Source: Telopea speciosissima (Eukaryota > Streptophyta > Magnoliopsida > Proteales > Proteaceae). Taken from it: a stretch of DNA of 64,000 bases. The position numbers and the translations under genes were made by a program. The stretch is taken from contig NC_057924.1 of the NCBI RefSeq assembly GCF_018873765.1, forward strand, positions 1,054,001 through 1,118,000, read 5' to 3'. The notes under the pieces were generated by a model that did no database searches, was not told the DNA's origin, and worked only from the letters and a program-made list of their open reading frames with translations. The number at the start of each line of letters is the position of its first letter. The first letter of the stretch is position 1. Below are positions 3 to 64,000 of this stretch, piece after piece.

Positions 3-783
3 ATTTCGCCCCTGATTCCAGCACGCTCTCATTGACTGCCCCACACGTGTGGCCCTTACGTTCCTCCACAAAGAACGCTCCCCCTTCAAATATTTATGTA
101 GAATCTTAACATAAAAAAGCAGATGCCTCCCATTGAAGCATCAAACTTAGGTTAGTGGCACCTAGGTTTTAAAGCAGAAATAGGTGACAAAACCGGTCGG
201 CTGGAATGGTAGAAATTGGGAGAATATTAGAGTAAATATTCTGATCCAGAATGGTAGAAATCGGATATTGATCCAACCGATTCTAATATGAATCGGCTGA
301 TTCTTGGTCTGATTCGTTGATTCCCAATCCGATTCCCTGATTTTTGAAACCCTAAGAGGAATGCATTTGCATGCAAAAGTGAGGAGAGAGAAATTTGCAT
401 GTAAATGGAATCTATGTGATAATTTCTGTGATAATTTCTTTGTTTTGGCTTCGATTTGAGCACTGTTTACGGACACACATTCGTGACGATGAGCACTACC
501 AATAGTAGTTGGCCACATCAGCAAGCAATTTACTATTTTTCTTAGGGAAGCCAAAAACTATTCAGATCGCCTAAAATGCCCTTCATTTTCAGGTGACAAA
601 ATAGGAATCGAAATAACTTCGTCGTCCGAACTTAGAATTCTACGATTCCAAATGCATTTCAAAGAAAACTCGACGAACTAAAATAGTCATGTAGATTTCT
701 TCATCCAGTTCTTCCATTAGATCCTCCGAAAATGCCAATGAACACGCTGCCAATGCGTGATCCTATGAAATCAATATTCTTAA
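3..783. repeat. Left copy of direct duplication (partner 13521-14273)
   Basis: This stretch aligns with 13521-14273 in the same orientation with small indels, for example at the shared TTTCGCCCC start and the shared stretch CACGCTGCCAATGCGTGATC near the end. It is the outer left part of the duplication unit that contains gene A; the partner belongs to the gene B unit. Its last nine bases, TATTCTTAA, form the left target-site duplication of the inserted Mutator-like element. I see no convincing gene; the ORFs here are low-complexity and are not conserved as proteins between the two copies. Confidence 0.85.
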
Positions 784-939
784 GGGAAAATTTCACGGAT
801 AGCCCCTGTAAATATTCAATATGTCACGGACTTCCCAAACTTGGTCAAAATGGTAACCTTCCCCCTGACGTTAAGCACAGTTAGTACCCAAAGGTGAAAT
901 ATCCATTTTACCCCTTAGTTATTTAAATAAAAAAAGGAA

Positions 940-2195
940 CAATTATTATCACTACCCTACACTTATCCTATATTTATTAAAACTACCCTACCTTAAACTT
1001 CTTTTCTGAAACTACCCTGCTTTTAAACTTTTACATCTCCTTCTATCCTCATGTTTTTAAATACCTAGATTGCCCTTCCTTTTCACCTAGTAACCTGCTA
1101 ATCTATTTAACCTACCATTCATCTTCTACTTTTTACTATTTTTGTCATTAAAATAGTGAAAAACAAAAGCACTCGCCTGCTTCTTCTCTCTCCCATTTTT
1201 TTTTACTTCAATTTTTCTATTTAATTAATTTTTTATTCAACATTTCATCCTCATCGTTCTTCTTTGAACAAATCATGGTTCTAAGTATTGGTATCATATC
1301 ACCCGTATCGATGATACATACCGATTTTGCTAGTCACCGATACCGTATAGGTAGCACGGTACTGACAAGGGGTAAAATGGTCAAAAAATTTATTTTTAAA
1401 GGAGATTCAGGGGTAATTTTGCTTGATACAGCCGAACCAGGCTGATACTGTATCGGTTTGCAGGTTACCGATACCCTTTCTGATACCGTACACTAAAACC
1501 ATGGAACGGATGGACTCTCTTCAAAACACCCCACTTCTCTCTCTTCTTCTTTTTATTCAATTTACTTTTTACTATTTTTGAAGAGAGTCGATCTGTTCCA
1601 TGGTATTAGTGCACGGTATCGGTAACCTGCAAAAATGATACGATATCGATACGTTATCGGCCTGGATCGACTGTATCAGGCAAAATTACCCCTGAATCTC
1701 CTTAAAAAAATGAGTTCACTGACCTTTTTACCCCTTGTCAGTACTGTGCTATTGATACGGTATCAGAATGATATCAATATCGATGACTAACAAAATCGGT
1801 ACATCGTCCGATACGGGTGATACGACACTGATACTTAGAAACATGATCTGTTTGAAGAACGATGAGGATGAAATGTTGAATAAAAAGTTAATTAAATAAA
1901 GAAACTAAAGAAAAAACAGCAAAAAAATTTGAATGGAGTAAAAAATGGGAGAGAAGCGGGTGGTTGCTTCATTTTTTATTATTTGAAAGACAAAAATAGT
2001 TAAATGTAGAAGATAAATAGTAGGTTAAATAGATTAGCAAGTTACTAGGTGAAAAGAAAAGGCAATCTGGATATTTAAAAATATGAGGGTAGAAGGAGAT
2101 GTAAAAGTTTAAAAGCAAGGTAGTTTTAGAAAAGAAGTTTAAGATAAGATAGTTTTAATAAATATAGGGTAAGTGTAGGATAGTGATAGTAATTA
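940..2195. repeat. Long imperfect inverted repeat inside the Pack-MULE
   Basis: Two arms of about 590-620 bp face each other around a loop at roughly 1527-1572. The outer edges pair as TATCACTACCCTACACTTA near 946-965 against its complement near 2172-2190. The inner edges pair as ACCATGGAACGG (about 1498) against the complement near 1591-1602. Each arm contains a smaller element rich in GATACCG/CGGTATC, itself partly palindromic, so the arms look like one insertion that was duplicated in inverted orientation. A transcript across it would fold into a long hairpin. No protein is encoded. It lies directly upstream of the captured GATL sequence. Confidence 0.8.
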
Positions 2196-2480
2196 CCCCA
2201 TAAAAAAACTGTCATTCCATCTTCTTCCATCTTCTTCCATATTCTTTCTGTTTTGGAGAACTGCTGCAAATCCATTTTGGGCGACCATCACCTGCTCCGG
2301 CTCCGGCGACGATTACCAGTGGTAATTCCAACTCCGGCGACCATTACCAGCGGCAATTCTAACTACTACAACATCAGTTCTACAAGGAAGAAGAAAGCGA
2401 ACTTCCCCTCCCCCCACCTTCCCTTTCCTTCTCAGTTCTTCTTCTTCTCTGTAACACACTGGCTGAGGCAGAACCGAAAC

Positions 2481-3419
2481 ATGCCCAAACCAACACCCTA
2501 TTACATCTTCTATCTTCTGAATCTTATGCTTAGCCTAAGCTTCTCATTAATCACAACCCCCACCTCGTCTGCTTCTCCCAATTTTAGAGAAGCCCCTGAG
2601 TTCTACAATTCTCCAGAATGTCCCCCGATCCCAGATGATGAAAGCAGCGACCACCATGAAGGATCCTACTTTTGCTCCGATCATACCGTTCACGTAGCAA
2701 TGACGCTTGACGCAGCTTACATAAGGGGATCCATGGCAGCCATCCAATGGGTTCTCCAACACTCCTACTGCCCTCAAAACGTTGTCTTCCATTTCGTCGC
2801 CTCTGCCTCCGCCGACGCCGTTCACCTGCGAAGCACCATTGCCAAATCCTTCCCATATTTGAGGTTCCAAGTTTACACTTTTGATGACTCCGCCGTGGCA
2901 GGTCTCATCTCCACCTCAATTCGTGCCGCACTCGACTGCCCACTTAACTACGCTCGCAACTACCTCGCTAATCTCTTACCACTCTGTGTCCGCCGAGTCG
3001 TCTACCTCGACTCGGATCTTGTTCTCGTCGACGACATCGCTAAACTCGCCGCTATCCCACTCGGTGACCACTCGGTCTTAGCAGCTCCGGAGTACTGCAA
3101 TGCCAATTTCCCCTCTTCCTTCACTCCAACCTTCTGGTCTAATCCTGCTCTCTCCTTGACCTTCGCGGGTCGTAAAGCTTGCTACTTTAACACCGGAGTC
3201 ATGGTAATCGATCTCGAGCGATGGCGTGCTGGGGACTACACTACCAAGATTGTGGAGTGGATGGAGTTACAGAAGAGAATGAGGATTTACGAATTGGGTT
3301 CGTTGCCTCCATTTCTGCTTGTCTTTGCAGGGAATATTGCCCCAGTAGATTACCGGTGGAATCAACACGCCCGACCGATGAAGAGAATGATTTGTATTTG
3401 GGGTTTTATATTATGGTAA
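2481..3419 (+). pseudogene. Galacturonosyltransferase-like (GATL, GT8) gene, 3'-truncated capture
   Basis: The ATG at 2481 opens a protein with a hydrophobic N-terminal segment (about residues 8-30, signal-like) followed by a GT8 domain of the PARVUS/GATL class. Recognisable blocks are [38 protein letters not shown], the metal-binding DxD in [45 protein letters not shown] and [18 protein letters not shown]. Known GATLs are intronless, about 350 aa, and act in the Golgi or ER in cell-wall pectin and xylan synthesis. Homology stops after RWNQH at about 3365 and unrelated residues lead to a stop at 3417-3419. The C-terminal 50-60 residues, including the family's HWSGxGKPW motif, are missing. The rest of the frame is open. 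The gene sits wholly inside the Mutator-like element, so it is a transduplicated fragment whose parent should lie elsewhere. An upstream in-frame TTG at 2253 is unlikely to be a start. Confidence 0.85.
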
Positions 3420-3624
3420 GTTCACCGTGTGGTAAGTGTAATTTCGCCATGATAAAAGAATTAAAGCAATTTAACTGCATAGACCTAACAGAGTGGACAA
3501 AGTTGAAATAAAAACATAAAGTAAGGGTAGTCTGTGATATTTTTCCAAGTTTGGTATGTCCGTGATATTTCATATACTTACAGGGGGTGTCTGTGAAATT
3601 AACCCTATTCTTAATGATTCTAGG

Positions 3625-3830
3625 TAGCGGTGTCAACCGATCGGGCTCGGTTGGGTTCGATCAGGCCTGGTCGGGTCTCACGGTGCTTAAAGCCTGCACC
3701 GTGACCGTCCATTTAAGTCTTCGGGCCGGGCCTGGTCGGCTAGTCGGGCTAGGTCGGGTTTCGGGCTATAATTGGGCTAGTGTAATCGATCCTTATCCGG
3801 GCTGTGGCCATGTGTAACTCTGAACGGCCC
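3625..3830. repeat. hAT-type MITE-like repeat with iterated CGGGC/CGGTCGGG motifs
   Basis: The segment opens with TAGCGGTGTCAAC, close to the TAGGGGTGTCAA end common to plant non-autonomous hAT elements, followed by many repeats of GGTCGGG/GGGCC. The corresponding place in the gene B block holds different sequence, so this belongs to the divergent part of the two units. I could not find a matching inverted end or target duplication, so family assignment is tentative. From 3831 to about 4100 I see only AT-rich sequence without a gene. Confidence 0.4.
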
Positions 3831-4103
3831 ACAATCGGGCTTTAATCAGATCTTAATGGATTAAGAGTAATAGAATAAATTAATTATTTTAAAATACATT
3901 TTAAATAATTTGGTAACTACTGTTAATCATGCCATTCATGCGTGAAAATTTTCAGAACAGGCAGATCAAATGGTCTCAACTCTCAATCATCTATCAAATA
4001 AAAAAGTAAATAAACTGTATTCTATCAATTATATTGGTTGTTCCACAGAATATGATGGATAATTTGGGTTTAAAAATCATAAGATATGTTGTGAAAAAAA
4101 TTC

Positions 4104-13520: not shown

Positions 13521-14285
13521 ATTTCGCCCCCAATTTCAGCGCACTCTCATTGGCTGCCGCATGAGTGTGGTCTTGCGTTCCCCCACAGAGAACAGCTCCT
13601 CCCCCTTCAAATATTTATTTAGAATCTTAACTTAAAAAAGCAGATGCCATTGAAGCATCAAACTTAGGATAGTGGAACCTGGGCTTTAAAACCAGAAATA
13701 GGTGACAGAACCGGTCGGCTGGAATGGTAAAAATCGGGGGAATCTTGGGGTGAATATTCTGATCCAAAATGGTAGAAACCGGAATTTGTGAATCGGCTGA
13801 TTCTTGATCTGACTTGCTGATTCCCAATCCGATTCCCTGATTATTGAAACCCTAAGAGGAATGCATTTGCATGCAAATGTGAGGAGAGAGAGAAATTTGC
13901 ATGCAAATGGAACCTATGCGATAAGTTCTTTGTTTTAGCTCCGATTTGAGTGTTGTTTACGGCCACATGTCCGTGACGATGAGCACTACCAATCGTAATT
14001 GGCCACATCAGCAAAAAATTTACTGTTTTTCTTAAAAAAGCCAAAAACAATTTTGATCACCTAAAATGCCCTTCATTTTTAGGTGACGAAATAGGAATCG
14101 AAATAACTTCGTCGTCTGAACTCGGAATTCTGCGATTCCAATTGCATTTCAAAGAAGACTCGACGAACTAAAATAGCCATGTGGATTTCTTCATCCAATT
14201 CTTCCATTAGACCCTCCAAAAATGCCAATGAACACGCTGCCAATGCGTGATCCTATGAAATCAATATTCTTAATGTATCTAGCCG
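13521..14285. repeat. Right copy of direct duplication with empty MULE site
   Basis: This is the partner of 3-783. It continues uninterrupted through TATTCTTAATG at 14265-14275, where the left copy holds the 2.8-kb Mutator-like element. Similarity fades within about 10 bp after that point. Confidence 0.85.
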
Positions 14286-61853: not shown

Positions 61854-64000
61854 CCCTCTTTCTTTTTCAAAATTAATGGGAGTCCCTTTGGTTTTTCTAA
61901 ACCTTCTAGAGGTCTCAAACAAGGGTGCCCCCTTAGCCCTTCCCTCTTCCTGTTTATCATGGAAATCCTCTCTCGGCTTCTGGATGCCTTTAGGGAAATC
62001 GATGCTTTCAAGGGCATCAAACTTGCAAGAGGAGCACCCGAGATCTCGCATCTACTTTTTGCAGATGATACCTTTTTTTTTCTACAAGAATATTGAGGAG
62101 ATTATCCTTTCTATCAAATCTGCCCTCAAACTTTTCTCCGACTTCACTGGACAAGAAATTAAATTCTCCATAAGTGAAATCTATTTCAGCAAATACACTG
62201 ATTTGGACAAAAACAGAAGAATCTGCTCCATTCTCAAAATAAAAGATATGAACACTGATTATCTCTATCTTGGTACAAAACTTTTTCACCACAGATCCAA
62301 GGTAAAGGACTTAACCTACATTGTCCAAAGAGTTCAGAAAAAGTTAAGCACCTGGAAGGCTAATTGTTTTTCTTTTGTGGGAAGGAGAGTGCTAATCCAG
62401 TCAGTCTTAGCCTCCACCCTTTCTTTCCTTATGTCTTGCTTCCTTTTCTCTCAAAAAATTTGCCATTCTTTAGATTCTGTGTACCTCAACTTTTGGAACA
62501 ATGACACTGAATCTAAGAAACAAGCACATCTTATTGGGTGGGATAAAGTCTGCACCCCCTTGACCCAGGGTGGCCTGGGAATTCGAAAGTCCCTCACTCA
62601 CAATAAAGCCTTAATCATAAAACTTGGATGGAGATTGCATACTAAACCACATTCTCTTTGGGCTAAAGTGCTGAAAGCAAAATACTTTCCCCGGACCTCT
62701 ATTTTTAACCCTGCTACTACTAGGAAGAAAGGCTCTTGGGTTTGGAATAGTATCACAACCATCTTACCTACCTTGAAGAAAATCATTTGGAGGAAAATTG
62801 GAAATGGAAAGACTACTCACTGCTGGTTTGACCCATGGATCCCTACCATCCCTTACCACTGTTTACCTACTAATTTTGCTTGCACTTCAGTACAAATAGT
62901 AAGTGATCTCATCATTAATCAACATTGGCACTATAATTCTCCTTTACAACATATTCCTGATGCTTTTAATTATGAAATATCTAAAGTACATATCTCAGAT
63001 GTCGAGGACCAATGGAGATATTCCTTAACAAAGACTGGAAAGTTCTCAACTAAACATGTAGCAAATTTCTTATATTCTCCATTACAAAACAGGCCCTCTC
63101 TCTCCAAGTGGTGGCGATTTTTCAGGAAAATTAAGATACATCCAAAATTTAAAATGTTCTTTTGGCGTGTTTTAAATGCAGGTTTACCTGTCAAGGCTAC
63201 TCTCTCAAAGTAGATCCCGATCGAGCCTACATGTGTTTTTTGTGATGCTTGTGATGAATCCCACTGGCATCTTTTTTTATCTTGTGAATGGACTAAGCGT
63301 ATTTGGACTTCTGGACCCCTCGGACTGAGATCTGAGCATCTTAGCAGCTCTGCTCTTGCACAGCTTTGTGCTTCCCTCCTCGAATCTAAAGCCCTGGATA
63401 GATCAATCGCTACCTAGTTCTTCTCTGTTGTTGCAATAACTTGTTACTTTATTTGGTCTGTAAGGAACAAAGCAATTCGTGGTCTAGCAACAGCTGACCC
63501 CTCTTTGTTATTAAAATACTTCCAAATGGCTTTCTGATCTAAATTTACATCCCCCAATGACTGATTCATCTCTATGTGACCACTATATATGTACTCCAAC
63601 TGATTCAGCACTTTCTGATTTATCTAACCATGATTTACAATTCCCTGTTTTATGTTGCGCAGGCCTTTTTGAACCTTCACTAGGCTTAACGAGTTGGGCA
63701 TAATGCTTTTTGCTAGATGGCCAAAGTGTTTTAACATCTGCAGGACTTTCAAGCTCAACTGACAAAATGGAGGCTGAGCTAATTGGAATTTTGCAGGGGT
63801 GAAAACACGCTTGGAAGGATGGAATCCATCTCAAAGACATATGGTTCACTAACTATAGACCAAAGGACCTTTTGAATCCTCGAAGGAATATGTATATCCC
63901 TTGGAACTTAATCTCTTTTTTCTTTGAATTAGCTGAAGTGACTGCAAACTTCTCCAGAGCAACTTTTGTGTACAAAAAAACCCAATGGTCACCACTAAAA
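61854..64000 (+). mobile_element. L1-clade LINE, 5'-truncated, running off the window
   Basis: It starts inside the reverse transcriptase: FFFKINGSPFGF, SRGLKQGCPLSPSLFLFIME (motif B region) and HLLFADDTFFFL (motif C). The frame then shifts at a T run near 62070-62080 and the second frame continues to a stop at 63211-63213. It shows the thumb (YLYLGTKLFHHRSK, STWKANCFSFVGRRVLIQS), GWDKVCTPLTQGGLGIRK, the plant zf-RVT region (KFKMFFWRVLNAGLPVKATL, CVFCDACDESHWHLFLSCEW) and, from about 63700, an RNase H-like stretch (DKMEAELIGILQG, WKDGIHLKDIW). The order RT, zf-RVT, RNase H is typical of plant L1 elements. The 5' junction lies in the spacer block at about 61853. The copy is dead. Confidence 0.9.

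Follow-up and report, generated by a model that had tools for sequence, protein, structure and literature searches.

The locus described here raises the question of whether a long open reading frame with a clear enzyme domain is a plant gene or the cargo of a transposon and, if it is cargo, how it came to be there. The frame is located near the left end of a 64,000-nucleotide stretch of the Telopea speciosissima genome (C9:1054001-1118000, on contig NC_057924.1). This whole stretch is called the window, and genome searches were made over the 823-Mb assembly. We are highly confident that the frame belongs to a non-autonomous Mutator-like element (MULE) of the Pack-MULE type, a kind of element first described in the rice literature, and that its cargo is a piece of a family-8 glycosyltransferase (GT8) gene. 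We refer to the captured gene as GATL, the name given in the initial annotation; this name goes beyond the profile test, which identifies GT8 only.

Composition of the element and its family

The outer element occupies window positions 784-3605, and both limits are directly abutted by perfect 9-bp duplications of TATTCTTAA. Two unrelated 9-mers would match at nine of nine positions with a chance of about 5e-6 at the composition of the window. The same sequence occurs further in the window at 14265-14273, 24446, 30188 and 60517 (minus strand), and its presence at the last three of these places means that the 9-mer alone is not diagnostic. Its length falls within the 9-11 bp of target site duplication (TSD) by which MULEs are defined (PMC3310237). 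The element also has long terminal inverted repeats (TIRs). Complementarity between the terminal arms (783-849 and 3540-3606) is 78% across 67 bp, and the ends conserved in the family extend over 144 and 197 bp. The right terminus fits a 24-base terminus pattern, which the left terminus fits inexactly. The duplications and inverted ends were already recognized in the initial annotation, which judged about 60 bp of the ends to be alignable.

As is characteristic of a Pack-MULE, there is no transposase inside the element. Its ends, a nested element and the GATL piece account for the interior, and no open frame of at least 130 amino acids other than the captured GATL frame is found within 784-3605. 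The cargo is a host gene fragment with an identifiable relative elsewhere, since it encodes a GT8 domain and is 93.2% identical to a gene on C5. The insertion also has an unfilled counterpart, both at window position 14265 and in five genomic copies.

The initial annotation described a 2.8-kb element. Its limits hold, but its length as one unit does not, since it includes a second transposon (936-2199) that had gone unnoticed. This nested element is 1,264 bp long and near-palindromic, is flanked by 9-bp duplications of ATAAAAAAA, and is found in at least 38 other places in the genome at 82-88%. It therefore has the characteristics of a fold-back MULE. TSDs were read for seven of the other copies. 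Two of these have perfect 9-bp duplications that differ in sequence (L003 and L004), one has a match at eight of nine positions (L005), one has a possible 10-bp duplication (L008), and the remaining three have weak or disturbed TSDs (L002, L006 and L007). ATAAAAAAA is AT-rich and is weak evidence on its own, so the argument for a nested insertion rests on family copies. Four members of the outer family that lack the nested element (L036, L045, L048 and L068) carry a single, unfilled ATAAAAAAA site. Once the nested insert is subtracted, the outer element measures about 1.55 kb, which is comparable to its relatives in the family (1.2-1.9 kb). The nested element is almost wholly palindromic and is a candidate source of hairpin siRNA.

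Table 1. Features of the Pack-MULE and its surroundings, in window positions.
Feature	Position	Strand	Basis or remark
Dispersed repeat, insertion target of the Pack-MULE	432..783	+	At least 39 other places, 78-90%, in-window copy included
Left TSD of outer element, TATTCTTAA	775..783	.	Exact repeat; single in unfilled copies, three with one mismatch
Left TIR of outer element	784..849	+	78% complementary to 3540-3605
Conserved left end of family	784..926	+	39 other places, 90-95%, among best 40 of 1,281 candidates
Left TSD of nested element, ATAAAAAAA	927..935	.	Single copy in L036, L048, L045, L068
Nested fold-back Mutator-like element, 1264 bp	936..2199	.	223-bp arms at 90% and five further nested pairs
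Right TSD of nested element, ATAAAAAAA	2200..2208	.	Repeat of 927-935
Family subterminal sequence	2209..2364	+	Adjoins left end in members without nested element (e.g. L048, L049, L050, 89-91%)
Captured GATL-type gene piece: 116 bp of 5' leader and codons 1-296	2365..3369	+	93.2% to C5:10210254-10211254, 1,011 columns
312-aa open frame: 296 GT8 residues and 16-residue tail of transposon sequence	2481..3419	+	Translation, Pfam
Family right end, including common stretch 3370-3408	3370..3605	+	39 other places, 82-93%, among best 40 of 1,100 candidates; many are the last 197 bases only
Right TIR of outer element	3540..3605	-	Outer 24 bases fit terminus pattern with 426 exact matches
Right TSD of outer element, TATTCTTAA	3606..3614	.	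Exact repeat
Separate dispersed repeat, about 10 bases right of TSD	3625..3888	+	At least 38 other places; 34 of them start between bases 16 and 25 of the query (window 3606-4103)
Unfilled target site, next unit of tandem subtilase array	14265..14273	.	TATTCTTAA single, alignment to left flank

A search of the whole genome for further copies of the TIRs, which the initial annotation had proposed, revealed many more elements with these termini. The 24-base terminus pattern has 426 exact matches in the genome, compared with 0 when the pattern is reversed. Among 100 of these 426 places, there are 18 inward-facing pairs of neighbours within 20 kb, spanning 1.3-4.4 kb, and 0 neighbours within that distance in any other orientation. 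The left 157 bases of the window element were found in 39 other places among the best 40 of 1,281 candidates scored. Likewise, the right 236 bases, or the last 197 of these, were found in 39 other places among the best 40 of 1,100 candidates scored.

As a control sample of the family, 61 loci were drawn by left end, right end or GATL piece, excluding the window's own two. Both ends are present in 34 extracted entries, of which 33 are distinct because L023 and L063 are the same. Flanks were readable in 29 distinct members. Perfect 9-bp TSDs are present in 13 of these, and 23 match at seven or more of nine positions, whereas 500 shuffles of the right flanks gave means of 0.78 and 8.5 and maxima of 4 and 15, respectively. 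The other six of the 29 lack a TSD of at least 7/9.

Family members have common ends, and their interiors split into different subfamilies. The share of the window element that aligns with any of the 34 entries (33 distinct) is at most 47%; the aligned parts are the ends, plus the GATL piece in those members that carry one. Pfam was applied to 30 queries, comprising the window frame, the C5 frame and 28 from other elements. Host domains above the curated cut-off are O-methyltransferase (L060), PADRE (L046), Methyltransf_29 (L034) and C2 (L087). Below the cut-off are a C2 match in L070 (19.4 bits versus a cut-off of 22) and an HTH match in L051 that is doubtful. No Pfam match was obtained for the other 22 of the 28 queries from other members, and noncoding interiors may be common in the family.

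A whole-genome search with the MULE transposase domain (PF10551) yielded at least 150 domains above the cut-off among 826 candidates, some of which are presumably FAR1-like host genes. No MULE transposase was found linked to the termini of this family. The longest terminus pair listed carries no transposase frame. It belongs to a 4.4-kb element (L087, C2:18536900-18541500) that has the same termini, a C2-domain fragment, and no open frame longer than 166 amino acids. An 814-aa frame with a MULE domain is located about 1.4 kb beyond the left end of L070, at C3:60489328, and we take this to be perhaps a FAR1-type gene.

The insertion site

The left flank of the element is a dispersed repeat (Table 1) whose in-window copy (13521-14282) is 84.8% identical to this flank over 788 columns. 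The initial annotation pointed to the single TATTCTTAA at 14265-14273 in this duplicated block and considered it an unambiguous empty site. The 9-mer is indeed present there, but it also occurs elsewhere in the window, as noted above. Moreover, the in-window copy matches the right flank over only about 10 bases beyond the TSD, because the separate dispersed repeat starts at approximately 3625. We therefore rejected the in-window site as sufficient proof alone.

The unfilled state is established by further genomic copies of the left-flank repeat (L082-L086), which are five of at least 38 places outside the window that match it. All five are unfilled, with TATTCTTAA in two and CATTCTTAA in three, and both these copies and the in-window copy run uninterrupted through the site and continue with the same sequence on the right. 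This makes six other copies of the flanking repeat in which the site is empty. The neighbouring subtilase unit has two copies that align over 6,992 columns at 91.9% identity, and the insertion would be later than the tandem duplication of this unit, judging from these alignments.

The Pack-MULE lies 3' of the first gene in a tandem subtilase array that extends from 5914 to 57738 of the window on the minus strand. All four frames tested have Peptidase_S8 and PA domains, the first unit also has fn3_6 and Inhibitor_I9, and further frames of similar size recur at a spacing of approximately 7-13 kb. Another open frame (61876-63213) has a weak zf-RVT match (18.2 bits versus a cut-off of 27.5) and is perhaps a non-LTR retrotransposon remnant.

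The captured gene piece and its copies

The captured sequence is 1,005 bp long and, if a TTG start is allowed, its frame is open from position 2253. The window frame matches the Pfam Glyco_transf_8 profile with an E value of 5.9e-38 (131.3 bits; residues 71-296; profile 1-218 of 253) and retains the DxD stretch YLDSDL. By comparison, the frame of the C5 relative is intact at 355 aa, and its GT8 domain is almost complete (170.6 bits, profile 1-251 of 253). The window frame lacks the last 59 residues, including a HWSGKGKPW stretch that is kept both in C5 and in the next relative (C4:15572198; 79%; 353-residue frame). The GT8 domain in the window is therefore incomplete, with its DxD motif kept and its C-terminal stretch lost. 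We take HWSGKGKPW to be part of the GT8 sugar-nucleotide site and, because this stretch has been replaced, the captured protein is expected to be enzymatically inactive. These results agree with the initial annotation, which described a GATL frame with 295 residues of family homology and an intact DxD motif (296 residues by our count) that had been transduplicated and had lost its C-terminus.

Homology to the C5 gene ends abruptly at 2365 and 3369, each time abutting transposon sequence of the family. The search for a parental GATL gene, also proposed at the outset, led to this C5 relative, but this relative and the true donor may be sister genes, and the direct donor may now be missing. The initial annotation would have abandoned its reading if no other element in the genome had these TIRs and a full-length GATL locus spanned this site in relatives. 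Within the present genome, other elements with these TIRs exist, and there is a full-length GATL-type locus at a different place, on C5, where the 9 kb of sequence examined contains no family termini.

Pieces of the GATL fragment are found at 92-98% in fourteen other places, and the window copy is the largest captured copy found. One of these pieces covers positions 20-503 of the fragment, two cover 20-178, seven cover approximately 20-144, and four cover 720-1005 or slightly less. Ten of the fourteen places were examined, and at least one of the two ends of this MULE family is present in each of the ten, where the GATL piece is joined to other sequence. Both ends are within the examined stretch in L056, L069, L071, L072, L080 and L081, and one end is present in L020, L024, L070 and L079. 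An eleventh place (C3:4605341) is inside a terminus pair. Weaker GATL matches include positions 129-224 in four places (88-90%) and positions 730-1003 in one (77%), as well as others that are shorter or weaker. L070 (C3:60485300-60488500) is chimeric, with its GATL piece joined to the C2-like piece mentioned above, and a right end was not found in this stretch.

The copies share both sequence states and junctions. Across positions 20-144, the window differs from C5 at 22 columns (9 of them gap columns), and six other elements side with the window at 20-21 of these. Across positions 20-503, L070 sides with the window at 34 of 44 differing columns, compared with 13 for the C4 outgroup. The 3' piece offers 14 columns, at which four elements match the window at 8-9 and C5 at 4-6, and at which the C4 outgroup matches the window at 6. 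All six 5' pieces examined start at position 20 and are preceded by the same foreign sequence. The right junction at GATL position 1005 is common to the window, L024 and L056, whereas those of L020 and L069 are at 1003 and 971. In addition, the four 3'-piece copies have a common 7-bp frameshifting insertion, and L056 also has an in-frame TAG. Because of the states shared in the 5' piece and the common right junction at 1005, we infer a single capture followed by reshuffling into chimeras. The states of the 3' piece point weakly toward a common capture.

We next consider selection on the captured frame, for which the first counts suggested constraint. The window and C5 sequences have a dN/dS of 0.175 and a dS of 0.158. 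When polarised with the C4 gene, the window branch carries 11 nonsynonymous and 11 synonymous changes, which is fewer nonsynonymous changes than neutral (binomial 0.006). This signal is gone once the changes are split into private and shared classes (two mixed columns left out), and selection on the captured frame was rejected. Changes private to single transposon copies number 31 nonsynonymous and 12 synonymous, near the neutral fraction of approximately 0.78, whereas shared changes number 8 and 13 (Fisher p 0.014 for private versus shared). Although the numbers are small, changes made after the copies split look neutral. The constraint is therefore placed before capture, and it appears to predate the split of the copies, in the gene lineage or the lineage of the true donor. 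When random substitution is simulated, the frame stays open in 57%, 44%, 33% and 22% of trials with 20, 30, 40 and 57 changes, respectively.

Two explanations would make the frame a gene rather than cargo. The locus could be an ordinary duplicate, a degenerate GATL paralogue lying between chance inverted repeats, and an open frame with a natural start and leader, along with a C5 gene that is 93% identical, is what such a duplicate would present. However, C5 homology stops at both boundaries against family transposon sequence, the termini and TSDs match those of a family of hundreds, and the site is unfilled in the six other copies of the flanking sequence. The homology boundaries and the unfilled sites led us to reject this explanation, to which we give almost no credence. 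It is somewhat less far-fetched, but still quite improbable, that the captured frame is a functional new gene under selection and expressed from the transposon end. The 312-aa open frame, the low dN/dS relative to C5 and the balanced counts on the window branch would fit such a gene. Against it stand the loss of the last 59 residues with the HWSGKGKPW stretch that C5 and C4 keep, the near-neutral private changes (31 to 12), the frameshift common to the four 3'-piece copies with the additional stop in L056, and the 57-22% of simulated trials in which the frame survives 20-57 random changes. A working enzyme is unlikely because the post-split changes look neutral, and we infer that youth rather than function has kept the captured frame open.

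If the frame is Pack-MULE cargo, the remaining issue is how often the gene was captured. If several family members had captured the same GATL gene independently of one another, this would account for the variety of left breakpoints (position 1 for the window, 20 for six other elements and 720-721 for four) and of right breakpoints (144, 178, 503 and 971-1005). The 3'-piece states also barely separate the transposon copies from C5. Nevertheless, the 20-21 of 22 states shared in the 5' piece, the junction at 1005 in three elements, and the six examined 5' pieces with one start and identical preceding sequence make repeated capture unlikely. We assign an even chance to the proposal that the GATL piece was instead captured once and that parts of it were later copied into further elements of this MULE family. 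If this reassortment did occur, then cargo would pass between elements as modules, and new Pack-MULEs would mostly be built from old ones rather than by fresh capture.

Proposed history and relation to known Pack-MULEs

The features of the locus are compatible with the following series of events. Gene sequence would have been copied once into a transposon during repair, by template switching or gap filling. Later template switching from sister elements during repair could then have generated the chimeric pieces. MULE transposase supplied in trans would have moved the outer element, inside which a fold-back MULE with its own 9-bp duplication now sits. The donor relative, the largest captured copy found, the truncated and chimeric pieces, and the unfilled sites are all present in one non-grass plant assembly. 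Thus, a testable order can be proposed for capture, amplification, reshuffling and nested insertion. The presence of captured-gene pieces in at least 10 related transposons lets one read how such elements are built. The locus also demonstrates that the cargo of a transposon can include an open frame as long as 312 aa with a clear enzyme domain, and annotation pipelines might report such a frame as a gene.

The element is of an already known kind. The initial annotation regarded gene capture outside grasses as little documented, but this view is not upheld by the literature, in which 1,447 Pack-MULEs are reported for sacred lotus (PMC4053705), 220 for tomato and 46 for Arabidopsis (PMC3310237 Table 4). 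In a word search of the open-licence literature, only the sacred lotus paper matched Pack-MULE together with Proteaceae, and no paper was found on capture of a galacturonosyltransferase-like gene by a transposable element. As far as the literature searched extends, it seems less usual that cut-up pieces of a single captured gene form a readable series.

The window element resembles the Pack-MULEs of rice, maize, tomato, Arabidopsis and sacred lotus (PMC3310237, PMC4053705) in having TIRs, 9-bp duplications and a piece of a host gene but no transposase. It is likewise similar in its size class of approximately 1-2 kb and in the many interiors found under one set of termini. It differs from the elements described there in that one fragment is cut up in at least 10 related elements and in its nested fold-back MULE. 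Tomato PM-ZIBP offers a close parallel, because a single captured host gene fragment, whose parental gene is known, was amplified to 14 copies, of which 13 have tandem termini and one has single termini (PMC3310237). The tomato copies gained tandem termini, whereas the Telopea copies differ in the part of the cargo that they keep and in the sequence joined to it. More broadly, Pack-TYPE transposons are non-autonomous DNA transposons with terminal repeats that capture and shuffle coding DNA (PMC8903248), as the present element does. This class spans several superfamilies, among which the Telopea element is Mutator-like by the length of its TSD and its long TIRs.
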